Assembly: GCA_951813575.1 (NCBI GenBank)
Contig: OX638375.1
Location: 3,239,042 to 3,303,041 of the forward strand
Reading direction: 5' to 3'
DNA from: Candidatus Binatia bacterium
Lineage (GTDB): Bacteria > Desulfobacterota > Binatia > UBA9968 > JAJDTQ01
Length of the DNA: 64,000 nt
The position numbers were made by a program, and so were the translations under genes. How positions within the stretch are numbered: position 1 is the first letter of the stretch; each line of letters opens with the position of its first letter. This document shows positions 50,430 to 60,374 of this stretch, piece after piece. Below the pieces are notes generated by a model. The model had not been told where the DNA came from. It did no database searches and was given only the letters and a program-made list of their open reading frames with translations.

Positions 50430-51686
50430 TCAGGTTTCCCAGAGCGTTCTGACCGGCACGGCAAAAAACTCTGGACCCACTTTTTGAATCCGGTCGCCGT
50501 CGTGGAGGACGATGCCGCAGACAAACAGCCGGCCCGCGGCCTCCCTCAGGCGTGCCAAGCCCTTGAAGTCACCGGGATGGACGGTGGCGCCTGCCTTGAC
50601 CTCGATGCCGACGATCCCTCCCGGCAACCGTTCCAGCACCAAATACACCTCGACCTGATCCTTGTCGCGGTAGTGGGAGAAAAATATCGGGTGATCCGAG
50701 AGGGAGGCCGTTTTGGCGAGTTCGGAATAGACGAAGCATTCCAGCAGAATCCCGAGTTGCTGTCGGTCTCTGGCGATGGCGGCGGCGTCGATTCGCCGGA
50801 GCGCCGCAAGCAGGCCCGAGTCCAGACACTGAAGCTTGGGCCGCTTGACCAGCCGTTTGAGCTCGCTACGATGCCAAGCATAGACCCGCCGGACGAGGAA
50901 CATGTGCTCGAACAAGGCCAGCCAGCGATCCACAGTCTTGCCGTCGACTCCCAGTCGGGATCCTATCCCGCTCATGTTGAGCAGTTGACCGGACGACGCC
51001 GCGACGTGGTCGAGAAGCCGCGCCAGCGCGTCGCGCTTTCCGATGGTCGCGATGTCCGGTACGTCGCGCTCAGCTAGCGAGCGGGCGTAGGATCGCAGCC
51101 AATTCGCCCGCCGTGCCGGGGCCGCTCGCGAGAGGGCTTCGGGAAAACCACCGGCGAGTATGCGCTCGGTCAGGCCCGTTGTGTCCCCCGCTACCCCGAA
51201 GCTCGGGAAATCTCCCGCGAACGCCCGATCCAAGAAACCCGGTGTGCCGGTACGGGCGATCTCCGCCTGTGAAAAGGGCAGCAGTTCTACCGTCTCGACA
51301 CGGCCTGCCAACGAATCGGGTGAGATGGCGGCTCGGAAGAGGTCCACCGATCCGGTGATCAGATAGCGTCCCGGTCGAGGGTCTTCGTCAACCGCCTGCT
51401 TGATGGCGAGGATCAGTGCGGGCGCCCGCTGAATCTCGTCGATGACCACCGCCGGGTTGCTGCGCACGAAGCCGATGGGATCGTCTTCGGCGAACCTCCT
51501 GTACTGCTCGTCGTCCAGGGTGATGAACGGGCGGCCGTCGTCATCGGCGATGCGGCGGGCGAGCGTCGTCTTGCCGGACTGCCGCGGACCCACGATGGCG
51601 ACGATGCGGGTGTCCGTGAGCGCCTCGCGGACCCGCGCCTCCGCATGCCGGGGCACATACTTTTCGCCTGTCGTCCGGTCCGGCAT
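50430..51686 (-). CDS. AAA+ ATPase with DUF4143 domain
   Basis: A 418-residue protein. Walker A is VAIVGPRQSGKTTLARRIAD, Walker B is NPAVVIDEIQRAPALI, and LITGSVDLF is the sensor-1 region. The C-terminal DUF4143 part has KRPKLQCLDSGLLAALR, then a nuclease-like VEVYLVLERLPGGIVGIEVKAG ending in the E-x-K pattern, which resembles a PD-(D/E)xK core. The family is widespread and often horizontally mobile; the function is unclear. The ATG has GGGAGG five bases upstream, and three phased repeats lie 31 bases further up. Confidence 0.9.
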   Translation of the reverse strand: MPDRTTGEKYVPRHAEARVREALTDTRIVAIVGPRQSGKTTLARRIADDDGRPFITLDDEQYRRFAEDDPIGFVRSNPAVVIDEIQRAPALILAIKQAVDEDPRPGRYLITGSVDLFRAAISPDSLAGRVETVELLPFSQAEIARTGTPGFLDRAFAGDFPSFGVAGDTTGLTERILAGGFPEALSRAAPARRANWLRSYARSLAERDVPDIATIGKRDALARLLDHVAASSGQLLNMSGIGSRLGVDGKTVDRWLALFEHMFLVRRVYAWHRSELKRLVKRPKLQCLDSGLLAALRRIDAAAIARDRQQLGILLECFVYSELAKTASLSDHPIFFSHYRDKDQVEVYLVLERLPGGIVGIEVKAGATVHPGDFKGLARLREAAGRLFVCGIVLHDGDRIQKVGPEFFAVPVRTLWET

Positions 51687-51716
51687 GTTGGCCTCCCAAG
51701 AATGGCACCCTGCTCC

Positions 51717-51779
51717 GTCCAACTCGGAATGGATTAGCGTTCAATCCGGAATATAACACCGTCCAATCCGGATTGAAAC
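51717..51779 (-). promoter_or_regulatory. Three phased operator-like repeats ahead of the DUF4143 ATPase gene
   Basis: Three 19-bp copies start at 51717, 51739 and 51761, exactly 22 bp apart: GTCCAACTCGGAATGGATT, GTTCAATCCGGAATATAAC and GTCCAATCCGGATTGAAAC. The third holds the perfect 12-bp palindrome CAATCCGGATTG. On the minus strand the middle copy contains TATATT, a possible -10 box, with TTTCAA 17 bases upstream. Autoregulation of the ATPase gene is plausible. Confidence 0.65.
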
Positions 51780-51990
51780 TACCGGCTATTCTCACGCGGG
51801 CCTAAAAGGAAATCGCACCGGTGAACGGGTAAACACCCGGCGAAGTGGAAACCCTCCTGCATCACCGGAGACGACTTGCAGTTGACAAACCACATGACAT
51901 TGGCGGAGGATGCGAACGCGCACGCAAGCGAACCATCCAGATTTTTTCGGGTCCCAATGGAACGGGCCGCGGCCCCTGAAGGAAGTGGTG
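51780..51990. other. Intergenic region ahead of the LLM cluster
   Basis: The non-coding stretch between the operator repeats and the LLM oxidoreductase. A TTGACA at 51882-51887 could be a -35 box, but no good -10 box follows at the right distance. The short inverted sequence GGGTAAACACCC lies at about 51828-51839. No other structure is seen. Confidence 0.3.
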
Positions 51991-53142
51991 ATGAAGTTCT
52001 CGTACACGCACCACATGCCCTATACCGGCATCGAAAAGGTGGGGCAGGATTGGCCCGTGGCCAACAAGCAGTTCAGCCCGGATGAAGGCATGCGGATCTT
52101 CCGGGCCGGGATCGACACCAAGGTCTTTGCCGAGGAATGCGGCTTCGACTGGATCGGCAACAACGAGCACCACATGAGCCCCTACGGGTTGATGCCGAAT
52201 CCCAACCTGATCGGGGCCTGTGTCGCGGAACGCACGAGCAAGTCGATGATCCTGCAGTCCGGCAACATCGTGCCCATCGTCAACCCGATCCGGGTGGCCG
52301 AGGAATACGCCATGCTGGACATGATCTCCGGCGGCCGCCTCGTCGCCGGGTTCATGCGCGGCATTCCCCACGAATACGTGGCCTACAACGTTGCGCCCAG
52401 TGAGTCCTACGGGCGCATGAACGAGGCCATCGAGCTGATCAAGAAGGCCTGGACCGAACCGGAACCGTTCGGCTGGGAGGGCGAGTACTACCAGTTTCGC
52501 GCGGTATCGATCTGGCCCAAGCCGGCCCAGAAGCCGCACCCCGAGATCGTCATGTCGGCCAGCAGCGACGGCTCCGCGCGCCTCGCCGCCGAGCACGGGG
52601 CGACCATGGGCGTCTTGCGCGTCCAGGACTACGAAACCGCGCACCACTCCCTTAACGTCTACCGGGAACATGCGCGACAGCTCGGCTGGGAACCGCAGCC
52701 CCACAACATCATCCTGGCCATGAACTGCTGTGTTGCCCCGAGCAAGGACGAGGCGATTCGAACGTTGCGCCGAGGCTATGATTACTTCTTCAATGTGCTT
52801 GGCGGCGGCATCCGCACGGCACAGCGGCTGGTCGTTCAGAAGACGCGCTACTTCAAGGATGACCACGACGCCGAGCGTCAGACCACGAAGCTGCGGACAC
52901 ACAATCAGCTCTCCCTCGAGGAGCGGATGGAACGCGGGCTGGTCATGTGCGGAACGCCCGACATGGCCATCGAACAAATCACGCGCCTCCATGAGGAGTT
53001 CGGTCACGGCGTGACCAATCTGAGCGTCAAGATCGGCAACGTGCCCGATGAGAGCGTCCGTCAGACCATGAGCCTTCTCCGTGACGAGGTTTTCCCCGCG
53101 GTGCGGAGTCTCGGCGCGGAAGAGCGGGCGGCACGACACTAG
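51991..53142 (+). CDS. LLM-class flavin-dependent oxidoreductase (bacterial luciferase-like)
   Basis: A 383-residue TIM-barrel monooxygenase family protein that would use reduced FMN supplied by a separate reductase. GFDWIGNNEHHMSPYGLMP is the luciferase-family EHH motif; LDMISGGRLVAGFMRG and YYQFRAVSIWPKPAQKP follow, all typical of the alkanal-monooxygenase group. It starts MKFSYTHHMPYTGIEKVGQD after AAGGAAG. It is the first gene of a seven-gene same-strand cluster with two carbon-nitrogen hydrolases and an ABC importer. That context suggests oxygenative attack on a nitrogenous compound, as RutA does on uracil. Confidence 0.88.
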   Translation: MKFSYTHHMPYTGIEKVGQDWPVANKQFSPDEGMRIFRAGIDTKVFAEECGFDWIGNNEHHMSPYGLMPNPNLIGACVAERTSKSMILQSGNIVPIVNPIRVAEEYAMLDMISGGRLVAGFMRGIPHEYVAYNVAPSESYGRMNEAIELIKKAWTEPEPFGWEGEYYQFRAVSIWPKPAQKPHPEIVMSASSDGSARLAAEHGATMGVLRVQDYETAHHSLNVYREHARQLGWEPQPHNIILAMNCCVAPSKDEAIRTLRRGYDYFFNVLGGGIRTAQRLVVQKTRYFKDDHDAERQTTKLRTHNQLSLEERMERGLVMCGTPDMAIEQITRLHEEFGHGVTNLSVKIGNVPDESVRQTMSLLRDEVFPAVRSLGAEERAARH

Positions 53143-53217: not shown

Positions 53218-54372
53218 ATGATCGACAAATACACCGCCGTCGCGGTTCAGACGATTATCCGTCACGTCCGGGAACCGGAGTGGCGCGACGCCATCATCCG
53301 CGAGAACGTCAATCGCTACCTCTCGCTGATGGAATACGTGAGCTGCCGCTGGGGTCAGGCAAAGCTCTATGTGCTGCCCGAGTTCTCGCTCACCGGCGTC
53401 GAACATGTCCGGTCGGTGGAGGAATGGACACGCATTGCGCTGCGCATTCCCGGTCCCGAGCTCGAACCCCTGGCCAACTTCGCGCGCATCAACCGGGCCT
53501 ACGTCGCCGGCGGAACCATGGAGTACGATCCGGCCTATCCGAATCGCTGGTTCAACTCCGCCTACCTGTTCGGACCGTCGGGGGATCTGTTGCTGCGCTA
53601 TCGCAAGGTCAATGGCGCCGACGTCCAGGGTCACACGACGTATTCGACGCCCACGGGTTGTTACGACCTGTACGTGAAGAACGAGGGCGGCGAGGACGCG
53701 CTCTTCCCGGTGGTGGACACCGAGATCGGCCGGCTCGCGCTCATCAACTGCTACGACATCAACTTCCCGGAAATGCCGCGCATCTTCGCGCAGCACGGCG
53801 CTGAAATCCTGCTGCACTGCACGGGCGAGCCCTACGGACCACACCGGGAGCCGTGGGAGATGAGCCGCCGCACCCGCGCCTACGAGAACTGCATGTACGT
53901 CATCTCTTCCAATCACGGCGGTTATGCCGCGCAGGTGTCGGGCGGCGTGTTCGCCGATTCGCCCGGGCTGAATTTCCAGGAGCGGCGCGACGGCGAGATA
54001 TCGCCCCTGCACCGTTCCCACGGCGGCTCCGAGATCGTCGATTTCAACGGCAAGGTGGTTGGCGCGGCGCCCAACCCCGGCGAGGCGCTGGCCATCGGCC
54101 CCATCGATCTGCGCGCCCTGCGGGAGCGGCGCGCGGAAGTACGCGACAACATCCTGGTCCAGTCGCGGACGGAAATCTACGCCCGCGAATACACCCGGCA
54201 CCAGGCCACCGGCATCAACCGTTGGCTCGAACAGCCCATCGCGCACAAGTCCGAGGCACGGCAGAGCACGGAAGCCGTCATCGCTCGTTATCTCCGGGAC
54301 GGGGTCTACGCGCCGCCGGAGGAACATGAGCCGGCGGCCGCAACGGAACAACAGAATCGCGCTCTGGCCTGA
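53218..54372 (+). CDS. Carbon-nitrogen hydrolase (nitrilase superfamily), catalytically complete
   Basis: A 384-residue cytoplasmic amidase/nitrilase-fold protein. The full Glu-Lys-Cys triad is visible: Glu55 in YVLPEFSLTG, Lys130 in LLRYRKVNGAD, and Cys178 in LALINCYDINFPEMPR. A substrate-side MSRRTRAYENCMYVISSNHG follows. The C-terminal extension of about 70 residues is unusually long and may mediate subunit contacts. GGGAG seven bases before the ATG. The next gene starts two bases after its stop and encodes a paralogue without the nucleophile. It likely opens an amide or nitrile in the product of the upstream oxygenase. Confidence 0.9.
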   Translation: MIDKYTAVAVQTIIRHVREPEWRDAIIRENVNRYLSLMEYVSCRWGQAKLYVLPEFSLTGVEHVRSVEEWTRIALRIPGPELEPLANFARINRAYVAGGTMEYDPAYPNRWFNSAYLFGPSGDLLLRYRKVNGADVQGHTTYSTPTGCYDLYVKNEGGEDALFPVVDTEIGRLALINCYDINFPEMPRIFAQHGAEILLHCTGEPYGPHREPWEMSRRTRAYENCMYVISSNHGGYAAQVSGGVFADSPGLNFQERRDGEISPLHRSHGGSEIVDFNGKVVGAAPNPGEALAIGPIDLRALRERRAEVRDNILVQSRTEIYAREYTRHQATGINRWLEQPIAHKSEARQSTEAVIARYLRDGVYAPPEEHEPAAATEQQNRALA

Positions 54373-54374
54373 TC

Positions 54375-55388
54375 ATGCCGAAGAAATTCCAGATAGCATG
54401 TATCCAGGCGTCCATCGAAATCATCGACGATCCGGAGCGGAAAGACGACGTCATCGGCCGCAACATCCGGCGCGGGCTCGAGATCGCCGAGGCGGCGGTG
54501 GTCCGGGACGAGGCGCGCCTGGTGGTGTTTCCGGAAGCCTGGTGCCAGGGTTTCAACCACAAGCGCACCGCCGACGACTGGAAGACCGTTTGCATCGAGA
54601 TACCCGGAGCCGAAACCGACCTCATCGGCGACTTCACCCGGGAGCACCAGGTTTACGTGGCGGGAGCCGCCTTCGAGCGCGATCCCGACTGGCCCGATGT
54701 CTGGTTCACCTCGGGCTTCATCGTCGGCCCGTCGGGCACGGTCGAGCTGCGCTACCGCAAGTGCCACGAGCACAACGTGGAAGGGTTGATCCCCAGCGTG
54801 TGTCCCGCCGATGTCTACACGGAGTATGTCCGGCGGTACGGAGAGGACTCCCTGTTCCCGGTCCTCGAAACGCCCTACGGACGGCTCGCGATGATCGTCG
54901 AGCACGACGTGAATTTCTTCGAGTTGTCACGCGCTCTGACGTTTCGCGGTGCGGAGATCCTCCTGCACCCGACCACCGAGACCAACGGGCCCCTTGCCGA
55001 GACCCGTGACCAGGTACGCCGGTCGCGCGCCTACGAGAACCTCGTCTACGTGGCCTCCGCCAACGCCGGTGCGTTGAGCGGCAGGTACAGCGCCGCCCAG
55101 GCCACGCGAGGCGGCTCCACGGTGGTCAACTATCTCGGCCATGTCGACGCCCGGATCGACGGCGCCGGCGAATCCGTCCTGGTGTCGACGGTCGATCTCG
55201 ACCGGCTGCGCAGACGGAGGACCGAGGTCTTCATGAACTTCCCGGCGCAGGTCAAGTCGGAACTCTTCGGCCGGGAGTTCGGGAAGCAGACTTTCATGCC
55301 CAGGGACACCGGCCGCGACGCGCGCGAGACAGCCGAAGCCACCATCAAGAGGCTCCAGGACGAAGGGGTCCTGGAGCCTCCCACCTAG
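54375..55388 (+). CDS. Nitrilase-superfamily paralogue lacking the catalytic Cys
   Basis: A 337-residue protein with the nitrilase fold and clear homology to its upstream neighbour. Glu54 (VVFPEAWCQGFN) and Lys129 (ELRYRKCHEHN) are kept. The nucleophile position reads LAMIVEHDVNFFELSR instead of LALINCYDINFPEMPR, so Cys is replaced by Glu176 and Tyr by His. This was checked codon by codon (GTC GAG CAC GAC). It cannot use the standard thiol mechanism. A regulatory or scaffold subunit paired with the active enzyme, or a changed chemistry, are the options. Only two bases separate it from the upstream gene. Confidence 0.88.
   Translation: MPKKFQIACIQASIEIIDDPERKDDVIGRNIRRGLEIAEAAVVRDEARLVVFPEAWCQGFNHKRTADDWKTVCIEIPGAETDLIGDFTREHQVYVAGAAFERDPDWPDVWFTSGFIVGPSGTVELRYRKCHEHNVEGLIPSVCPADVYTEYVRRYGEDSLFPVLETPYGRLAMIVEHDVNFFELSRALTFRGAEILLHPTTETNGPLAETRDQVRRSRAYENLVYVASANAGALSGRYSAAQATRGGSTVVNYLGHVDARIDGAGESVLVSTVDLDRLRRRRTEVFMNFPAQVKSELFGREFGKQTFMPRDTGRDARETAEATIKRLQDEGVLEPPT
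55350..55379 (+). other. Perfect 12-bp hairpin within the end of the nitrilase-like gene
   Basis: AGGCTCCAGGAC (55350-55361) pairs with GTCCTGGAGCCT (55368-55379) around GAAGGG, within the last twelve codons of the nitrilase-like gene and 31 bases before the ABC ATPase start. No T-run follows. It may be a processing or stability signal separating enzyme and transporter messages. Confidence 0.5.
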
Positions 55389-55410: not shown

Positions 55411-56580
55411 ATGGCAATGCTGCAGACGAGGCGTCTCGAGGCGAAGTTCCCGTTGCGGGACGGCGTCGTGCACGCCCTGCGCGGCATCGATCTGGATGTC
55501 GCCGCTGGCGAGTTCTTCGTGCTACTGGGCCCCTCGGGCTGCGGCAAGACCACCATGCTGCGTTCCATCGCCGGGCTGGAACGGCCCACCGCTGGCGAGA
55601 TCCTCATCGACGGGCATGCCATCTTCGACGCCGGGAACGGCGTTTTCGTCCCGCCCGATCGCCGCCCCATCGCCATGGTGTTCCAGTCCTACGCCATCTG
55701 GCCGCACATGGACGTGTTCGAGAATATCGCCTTCCCGCTCCGTCGCGGCCGGCTCAAGATGGATACGGACTCGGTGCGGGACCGCGTCGGCGAGGTGCTC
55801 GAGATGCTCGGGCTCGACGCCCTGGCCGAACGGCCGGTCATCACGCTGAGCGGCGGCCAGCAGCAGCGGGTGGCGCTGGCGCGGGCACTGGCCTTGCAGC
55901 CCCGCATCCTGTTGATGGACGAACCGCTCAGCAACCTGGATTTCAAGCTCCAGGTCCGTCTCCGCGCCCAGATGCGCGAGCTGATGCACCGCCTCAACCT
56001 GACGACGATCCACGTCACCCACAACCAGGCGGAAGCCCTGGAGACCGGCGATCGAATCGCCGTGATGTCGGAGGGCCGCATCGTCCAGATCGGTGACCCG
56101 CAGGCCGTCTACCATCGTCCGGAAAACGAGTTCGTCGCACGCTTCATCGGCGACATGAACATTTTTCCGGCGGTCTATCGGGGCGGCAACGGGGGCACGG
56201 CTCGCGTGGAGACGCCCTTCGGCTACCTCGATGCGCAACGGACGAGCCGCGACAGTTTTGCGGAGGGTGCCACCTGTATGCTGGGGATTCGGCCGGAAGA
56301 CATCGAGATCGGCAGCGCCATCCCGCAGGACTCGGCCAATCTCGTAACCGGTACGGTGTCCGCATCGAGCTATGTCGGCGAGGGTTACGTCCACACCGTC
56401 GAGTCTTGCGGCCAGCCGGTCAGGATCAGGCGGCATCACCGGGAGGCCATCAGCCGCGGGGATTCGATCCGGCTCCATTTCCCGCCGGCGGAAACCGTCG
56501 TGGTCGCGCCGTCCGACGGCCTGGATATGGAAGGACTCGAAGGCGGGCTCGCCGGCGAGGAAGCCGCTCGTGCCAACTAG
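55411..56580 (+). CDS. ABC transporter ATP-binding protein (iron/spermidine type)
   Basis: A 389-residue ATPase of the FbpC/PotA class. Walker A is LLGPSGCGKTTMLRSIAG, Q-loop AMVFQSYAIWPHM, signature TLSGGQQQRVALARALA, and Walker B LLMDEPLSNLDFKLQV with the switch His in TTIHVTHNQAEAL. The C-terminal TOBE/regulatory part (about residues 280-370) includes IRPEDIEIGSAI. The fused permease follows, its start overlapping this stop by 11 bases, and the binding-protein gene is next. It completes a full importer. Confidence 0.95.
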   Translation: MAMLQTRRLEAKFPLRDGVVHALRGIDLDVAAGEFFVLLGPSGCGKTTMLRSIAGLERPTAGEILIDGHAIFDAGNGVFVPPDRRPIAMVFQSYAIWPHMDVFENIAFPLRRGRLKMDTDSVRDRVGEVLEMLGLDALAERPVITLSGGQQQRVALARALALQPRILLMDEPLSNLDFKLQVRLRAQMRELMHRLNLTTIHVTHNQAEALETGDRIAVMSEGRIVQIGDPQAVYHRPENEFVARFIGDMNIFPAVYRGGNGGTARVETPFGYLDAQRTSRDSFAEGATCMLGIRPEDIEIGSAIPQDSANLVTGTVSASSYVGEGYVHTVESCGQPVRIRRHHREAISRGDSIRLHFPPAETVVVAPSDGLDMEGLEGGLAGEEAARAN

Positions 56581-58408: not shown

Positions 58409-58466
58409 GCGATTCGGTTCGCATGTGATTCGTATGTTACAGGCCACTAGAAAAGGAGCGATGCAG

Positions 58467-59498
58467 ATGAAACAGACACTCACGACAATGGTTGGGCTGC
58501 TCGCCATGGCAGCGGTGTTGTTCGGCGTGCCAGCGATGGCCACCAGCGCGGATCTGCCGGATGCCGTGAAGAAGCTCATCAAGCCGGCGCAGGCTGAAGG
58601 CGAGGCCACCGTTTTCGGCACCACCATGAACCCGCGCCAGGTCGCCATGATGAACAAGGGGTTCAATTCGTTCTACGGCACCAACATCAAGCTCAACCAG
58701 GTCGGCGGCCGCCATACGCGCAAGCGGGTGGAAGTCATCCGCGCCCTGAAGAACAACGTGCCGACGGGACTCGACCTCTTCTGGACATCGAGCCCGCGCG
58801 CGCTGATCGCCGGCGATGCCATCGTCAAGTTCGACTGGGCCGGCCAGTTCGGCGTGCCAAAGGAGCTGATGGAAGGCGAGTACGGCATCAAGACGCATGA
58901 CAGCTACCTCACCCTGGTGACCATCAACACCAATCTGGTGAAGCCCGCGGACGAGCCCAAGAACTACGACGAGCTGCTCGACCCGAAGTGGAAGGGCCGC
59001 ATCGCCATGCCGCGCTCGCCCTCGCCCTGGGTGTACTTCACCTATGCTTTTGGCGAAGAGAAGGCTCAGAAGTACCTGGAAACGCTGCTCCGCAAACAGG
59101 AGGTCAAGACGCTGCCGCGATATCCCGACGTCCGGTCGCGGATCATCGGCGGTGAGTTCGCCGTCGGCCTCGGCACCGACGCCTGGGCCGAGATCGCCAA
59201 GGGCGCTCCGGTGAAGCATCCGGACGTAGACACCGTGATCCTCGCCGCCCGCGGCGCCTACATCGTAAAGGACGCCAAGGCGCCGAACATCGCCAAACTG
59301 TGGGGCTACTGGGTGGTGTCTCCCGCCGGCCAGAAGACCATTCACGATGTCCGTGGCTATTCGCTCGTCAGCTCGAAGAGCGGCTACATGTACAACTACA
59401 TCCAGGGGAAGAAGGTCATCGACATACCCTTCGACTGGCGGATGAAGAACGAGGCACGGTTGTCGAAGAAGTTCCGCGAGGTGTTGCGTGAGAAGTAA
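58467..59498 (+). CDS. ABC transporter extracellular substrate-binding protein (iron(III)-type fold)
   Basis: A 343-residue periplasmic protein of the SBP_bac_6/AfuA-like class. Signal peptide MKQTLTTMVGLLAMAAVLFG, cut near AMATSA. Then EGEATVFGTTMNPRQVAMMN, the mid-domain DLFWTSSPRALIAGDAIVKF, and KNYDELLDPKWKGRIAMPRS, typical of the AfuA/FutA group. The usual Tyr pair for ferric iron is not obvious, so an organic or oxyanion ligand is plausible. ATG 58467 fits AGGAG spacing better than 58461. Third component of the ABC importer. Confidence 0.9.
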   Translation: MKQTLTTMVGLLAMAAVLFGVPAMATSADLPDAVKKLIKPAQAEGEATVFGTTMNPRQVAMMNKGFNSFYGTNIKLNQVGGRHTRKRVEVIRALKNNVPTGLDLFWTSSPRALIAGDAIVKFDWAGQFGVPKELMEGEYGIKTHDSYLTLVTINTNLVKPADEPKNYDELLDPKWKGRIAMPRSPSPWVYFTYAFGEEKAQKYLETLLRKQEVKTLPRYPDVRSRIIGGEFAVGLGTDAWAEIAKGAPVKHPDVDTVILAARGAYIVKDAKAPNIAKLWGYWVVSPAGQKTIHDVRGYSLVSSKSGYMYNYIQGKKVIDIPFDWRMKNEARLSKKFREVLREK

Positions 59499-59534: not shown

Positions 59535-60374
59535 ATGATGAACTCGGGGCCCGCCGGTGAGTCCTTCAAGAGACTCACCGCCGACCTCGCGTCCGGTCCG
59601 GTGACCTACCACGTCGCCGGCCAGGGGCCGCCCGTGCTGTACATCCACAGCGCGGGCGGCATCCGCTTCACCTACGCGCTCGACGAGTTGTCGCGGGACC
59701 ACCGGATTCACATGATGGTCGCCCCCGGGTTCGACCGGACGCCGCCCCATGAGGGCCTCGACACCATGCCGGCGCTCGCCGATCTTGCGGGCGAGTTCGT
59801 GGATTCGGTGATCCGCGGACCGTGCGACCTGATCGGCCAGTCGTTCGGCGGGTTCCTGTCGGCATGGGTGACCGCGCGCCATCCGGACAAGATAAGCTCC
59901 GTCGTGCTCCAGTGCCCGTCGGGTTTCCGCCCGCCGCACATCCCGCAGAAACCGCCGGGCAGTCCGGAAGAGATGAGAAGCAGAATGTTCGCACACCCGG
60001 AACGCATTCCTCCGGGAGAGAAGACTCCGGCCGAGCTTGCCGAAAGCCGGGGGTGGGCGGACTACTACCACAAGTCCATCGGGCTCGATGAAACGCTCGT
60101 CGCCCGATTGCCCGAGATCGAGCAGCAGACGCTGGTTTTGCAGGGCACCAAGGACGGCATGATGCCGCCAGAGAGCGGGCAGCTTCTGGCACGGGAGATC
60201 CCCCATGCCAAGCTGGTCTACGTCTATGACGCCGGCCACAACATCGAGGTGGACCAGCCGGAGCGGTTCGTCGCCCTGGTGCGTGATTTCTTCTCGCGCG
60301 GCGAGGCCTTCATCGTCAATCCGGGTGACGAACAGGCGGGCGTGATGGCGGCGACCCGTCAGCCGTCCCCGTAA
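59535..60374 (+). CDS. Alpha/beta hydrolase
   Basis: A 279-residue serine hydrolase. The nucleophile elbow is LIGQSFGGFLSAW, the acid is in LQGTKDGMMPPES, and the His is in YDAGHNIEVDQPER. The oxyanion HG motif is altered to YIHSAGG. It begins 37 bases after the binding-protein gene and closes the LLM-nitrilase-ABC cluster. In the Rut pathway RutD, also an alpha/beta hydrolase, assists a late hydrolysis step. A similar role here is inference. Confidence 0.88.
   Translation: MMNSGPAGESFKRLTADLASGPVTYHVAGQGPPVLYIHSAGGIRFTYALDELSRDHRIHMMVAPGFDRTPPHEGLDTMPALADLAGEFVDSVIRGPCDLIGQSFGGFLSAWVTARHPDKISSVVLQCPSGFRPPHIPQKPPGSPEEMRSRMFAHPERIPPGEKTPAELAESRGWADYYHKSIGLDETLVARLPEIEQQTLVLQGTKDGMMPPESGQLLAREIPHAKLVYVYDAGHNIEVDQPERFVALVRDFFSRGEAFIVNPGDEQAGVMAATRQPSP

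Follow-up and report, generated by a model that had tools for sequence, protein, structure and literature searches.

The window analyzed here is a stretch of 64,000 nucleotides from a Candidatus Binatia bacterium (contig OX638375.1), and it raises the question of why a nitrilase-fold protein that has lost its catalytic cysteine is encoded directly beside an intact paralogue. Published descriptions give the nitrilase superfamily a common Glu-Lys-Cys triad (PMC1199592, PMC5500890), and a paper from 2005 expresses the belief that it is present in every member (PMC1199592). Gene A (positions 53218 to 54372, + strand), with its ATG at 53218 and a stop codon ending at 54372, is predicted to encode an intact nitrilase-superfamily hydrolase of 384 amino acids with the residues E55, K130, and C178 (PF00795, 1.7e-36; 126 bits). 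Gene B (54375 to 55388, + strand), with its ATG at 54375 and its stop codon at 55386 to 55388, encodes a paralogue of 337 amino acids with E54, K129, and E176 (PF00795, 3.6e-28; 99 bits), and both scores are far over the 23.2-bit cutoff. The aligned nucleophile motif is INCYD in A and IVEHD in B, where the codon GAG (54900 to 54902, + strand) encodes Glu176 where the catalytic Cys would stand, as seen in the sequence and the alignments; the catalytic Glu base (Glu54) and the catalytic Lys (Lys129) are present. The original prediction gave the coordinates and residues of both genes correctly, and its observation that B has IVEHD opposite INCYD while keeping the triad Glu and Lys was confirmed by alignment in this genome. 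Among the 10 PF00795 proteins of the genome, nine have the Cys, and B is the sole exception.

B belongs to the nitrilase superfamily both by sequence and by its predicted alpha-beta-beta-alpha fold. An AlphaFold2 model based on 13 sequences (mean pLDDT, 75; pTM, 0.79) had amidases and formamidases as its top structural matches (Z scores of 25 to 29), with a Z score of 29.1 and an rmsd of 2.5 over 259 residues for the aliphatic amidase 2uxy, and B is thus predicted to keep the nitrilase fold. The model of A had a mean pLDDT of 68 and a weak C-terminal part. The AmiF formamidase and the AmiE aliphatic amidase are like B in fold (Z scores of about 27 to 29) and have the aligned Glu base and Lys, whereas the nucleophilic Cys is missing in B, which is about 20% identical to them. 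Mouse Nit2 (nitrilase homologue 2; 2w1v) was the top PDB sequence match for both A and B; it has the Cys (aligned ICYDMRF), which B does not. When compared with the NCBIfam curated equivalogs for formamidases, amidases, and nitrilases, B remained under the cutoff, its best match being the formamidase family with a score of 73 bits (72.9 bits versus 406).

Five other genomes of the genus (G002, G003, G005, G006, and G007) carry B with 88 to 92% identity and VEHD in each, so that, with the window's own copy, all six copies of the genus, each from a different assembly, have Glu176. The B orthologues of the sister family (G027 and G031) are 45 to 51% identical and have LVGND, with Gly in place of the Cys and Gln in place of the catalytic Lys. 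The Cys is missing in all eight B copies from the two families (Glu in six and Gly in two). The Glu found in six separate genus assemblies, the Gly of the sister family, and the Cys retained in the other nine PF00795 proteins show that Glu176 is neither a misread nor an alignment artefact. Because the sister-family orthologues have Gly and have lost the Lys, the conserved trait of B is the loss of the Cys and not the presence of Glu. The possibility that Glu176 itself is conserved among homologues, raised by the original prediction, was borne out within the genus (six of six copies) but not in the sister family, where both copies have Gly. Pairwise dN/dS values within the genus, calculated by the Nei-Gojobori method, were 0.07 to 0.15 for B (six copies) and 0.04 to 0.06 for A (three copies), values that show purifying selection on B, whose reading frame is intact. 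Two candidates for a substitute nucleophile were also considered: Glu as a conserved replacement was rejected as a general feature because of the Gly in the sister-family orthologues, and Cys130, located beside Lys129, was not supported, being absent from the sister family.

B is tied to A in the genomes where it occurs. Gene A is kept in the genus and in G027. Among the 35 genomes of the order, the two genes lie side by side in G000, G002, G003, G005, G007, and G027, whereas G001, G004, and G008 of the same genus and G020 of the genus of G027 have neither. No case of A without B was found among these 35 genomes. G006 and G031 are the only genomes in which B was seen without A; there, the match to B starts at contig base 95 and base 1, respectively, and A is not visible because B lies at the contig edge. 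The stop codon of A and the start codon of B are separated by 2 nucleotides (54373 to 54374, + strand), with equal spacing in the genus copies, and by 11 nucleotides with a GAGGAG site in G027. Only eight genomes are known to carry the pair, and six of them belong to one genus; the hosts are uncultured Binatota bacteria. B combines the loss of a catalytic residue in all of its orthologues with constraint and with a genetic tie to an active paralogue. The proposal that B is a pseudoenzyme beside an intact neighbor accordingly stood in its conservation, adjacency, co-occurrence, 2-nucleotide spacing in the genus, and purifying selection; the Glu was the part of it that proved not to be a conserved feature.

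Since B is conserved without its nucleophile and is both adjacent to and co-occurring with A, we favor a partner role, and B is probably a conserved pseudoenzyme that serves as a non-catalytic partner subunit of A. In the known route of the superfamily, the Cys forms a thiol-acyl intermediate (PMC5500890). B retains the predicted fold, and its copies in this genus also have the general-base Glu and the Lys, but with the Cys gone it could not form such an intermediate, and as the known route needs the Cys, B should not hydrolyze amides or nitriles by it. It would instead join A across the nitrilase oligomer interfaces and shape, stabilize, or regulate the hydrolysis of an amide or nitrile by A. 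We infer with strong confidence that B lacks amidase activity and with moderate confidence that it is physically partnered with A; the substrate class of the operon can be suggested only weakly. No published Cys-less or pseudoenzyme member of the nitrilase superfamily was found in the open-access literature, which is not proof of absence. Whether a dead subunit can contribute to the assembly or regulation of nitrilase oligomers could be tested cleanly on a conserved Cys-less member coupled to an intact sister. Dead paralogues retained beside active ones are known from the prozyme-type activator subunits of trypanosomatid AdoMetDC and deoxyhypusine synthase, where activation is established. The A-B pair would be like these in its working, in that a dead paralogue is kept with an active one, but the folds are unrelated, and for A and B activation is only inferred.

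In a maximum-likelihood tree of 57 proteins, the B copies form a single clade (support, 100/99) beside A and paralogues with an LTCTD motif. In the best tree, B falls outside the group of A and the LTCTD paralogues, so that A is not its sister, and B may for this reason not be a simple local duplicate of A, although A and B as one clade were not rejected (p-AU, 0.35). Grouping of B with the Cys-less proteins of Nonomuraea and Novosphingobium gave a p-AU of 0.07. The LTCTD type is represented in the genome studied here by a third paralogue of the same branch (L031, 7756 to 8811) that keeps the Cys and has orthologues in G004 and G008, both of which are without A and B. Between the two families, B has diverged more than A (branch sums of about 1.38 versus 0.81), and such faster divergence is expected if catalysis no longer constrains B. 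Seven positions, A89, I170, C178, P184, A191, R317, and A322, are changed in both B lineages and invariant in the close relatives that have the Cys. Four of them, I170, C178, P184 (changed to F; NFFE), and A191, are located at the nucleophile or close to it. The helix following the nucleophile is part of the usual nitrilase dimer surface, and B may have an adapted interface there.

Cys-less proteins also occur elsewhere in the branch, and the nucleophile column underwent at least six state changes on the 57-protein tree. Ala is found at the nucleophile in a clade comprising Tsukamurella, Haladaptatus, Halorientalis, Flammeovirga, and genomes of the window's own class (L083, 5728 to 6930; L103, 4917 to 6107; L107, 4983 to 6113; L108, 4971 to 6080; L017, 1069 to 2484; L018, 1369 to 2619; and L074, 1360 to 2460). 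This clade spans Actinomycetota, haloarchaea, Bacteroidota, and relatives of the window's genome, and its members are solo nitrilase-fold proteins named carbon-nitrogen hydrolases where annotated. A further solo homologue, from the window's order (G010; L016, 1381 to 2481), has Ala at the nucleophile and a changed base-Glu region (FVFDAHAH). Two Novosphingobium plasmid proteins (L084, 5845 to 6906; L109, 4557 to 5837) carry Gly in place of the Cys and Gln in place of the base Glu, and have thus lost two of the three triad residues, and a Nonomuraea homologue (L082, 5935 to 6915) has Ser at the nucleophile and Arg for the catalytic Lys. Where the loci of these Cys-less genes were checked, the ~5 to 6 kb on either side contained no further close nitrilase homologue; ordinary Nit-type genes occur further off. 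The solo genes annotated as nitrilase-related carbon-nitrogen hydrolases in Tsukamurella, Haladaptatus, Halorientalis, and Flammeovirga are thus like B in belonging to its superfamily branch and in having the Cys replaced but differ from it in having Ala, in forming a separate clade, and in standing alone. In this branch, an automatic annotation as "carbon-nitrogen hydrolase" can fall on a protein that is unable to use the known mechanism. The statement in the original prediction that all nitrilase-superfamily enzymes use that Cys fits the characterized enzymes but not all homologues, given the solo Ala, Ser, and Gly variants.

Since the Cys-less relatives in Tsukamurella, Haladaptatus, Novosphingobium, and Nonomuraea are solo, loss of the Cys need not imply an active partner, and this is the main limit on how confidently we assign B a partner role. 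One broader explanation would be that the whole branch has repeatedly dropped the Cys (for Ala, Ser, Gly, or Glu) and performs Cys-independent chemistry or ligand binding, with the A-B pair being a Cys-less form coupled to an active sister; we consider this unlikely. Slightly less likely still is that B is itself an enzyme with a Cys-independent activity, in which a pocket of Glu54 and Lys129 with Glu136 and Glu176, both of them nearby in sequence in this genus, binds and turns over another substrate, possibly a precursor or a product of A. Such an activity would fit the retention of the triad Glu and Lys throughout the six copies of the genus, and the occurrence of solo Cys-less relatives in several phyla suggests a use for the pocket even when the Cys is gone, but in the sister family Glu176 is replaced by Gly and Lys129 by Gln, and the orthologues are left with no common catalytic set. 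To the same low degree, B could be a sensor or carrier that binds a ligand in its dead pocket without contacting A, as the retained fold, the partly retained pocket, and the existence of solo Cys-less relatives would allow; against this, A is adjacent and co-occurring in two families. A recent loss-of-function mutation, a decaying gene, or a sequencing error, which has nothing beyond the unexpected residue in its favor, is extremely improbable and is refuted by the Glu in six separate assemblies, the full-length intact frames, a dN/dS of about 0.1, and a sister family that also lacks the Cys: the original prediction had allowed for Glu in this genome alone and Cys in its homologues, and we found the Cys absent from all B orthologues.

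As a non-catalytic partner of A, B would act within an operon for the uptake and oxidation of small molecules, comprising an LLM monooxygenase, A, B, an ABC importer, and an alpha/beta hydrolase. Upstream of these genes, an ORF on the - strand between serS and the LLM gene (50430 to 51722) was noticed, which is ATPase-like and has an N-terminal P-loop (GPRQSGKTT); no ORF of this type was seen in the serS-LLM interval of L046 and L048. The LLM (luciferase-like) flavin monooxygenase gene lies directly upstream of A (51985 to 53142, + strand; PF00296, 5.1e-48) and is ~95% identical in the genus copies of the locus. Downstream of B, all on the + strand, are the genes for a PotA/PhnT2-like ABC transporter ATPase (55411 to 56580; PF00005 and TOBE_2), an ABC permease with two transport domains (56552, an approximate start, to 58408; BPD_transp_1 in two stretches), an ABC substrate-binding protein (58425 to 59498; SBP_bac_11 and a weak PhnS2 match), and an alpha/beta hydrolase (59535 to 60374; PF00561, 7.3e-22). 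Synteny also supports these assignments: in the genus, the monooxygenase gene is kept upstream, and the importer and hydrolase genes are found downstream wherever the contig extends that far. In the sister family, genes for NMT1-type binding proteins follow the pair in place of the genus neighbors, and as the downstream genes differ between the two families, the A-B pair is the constant part of the locus.
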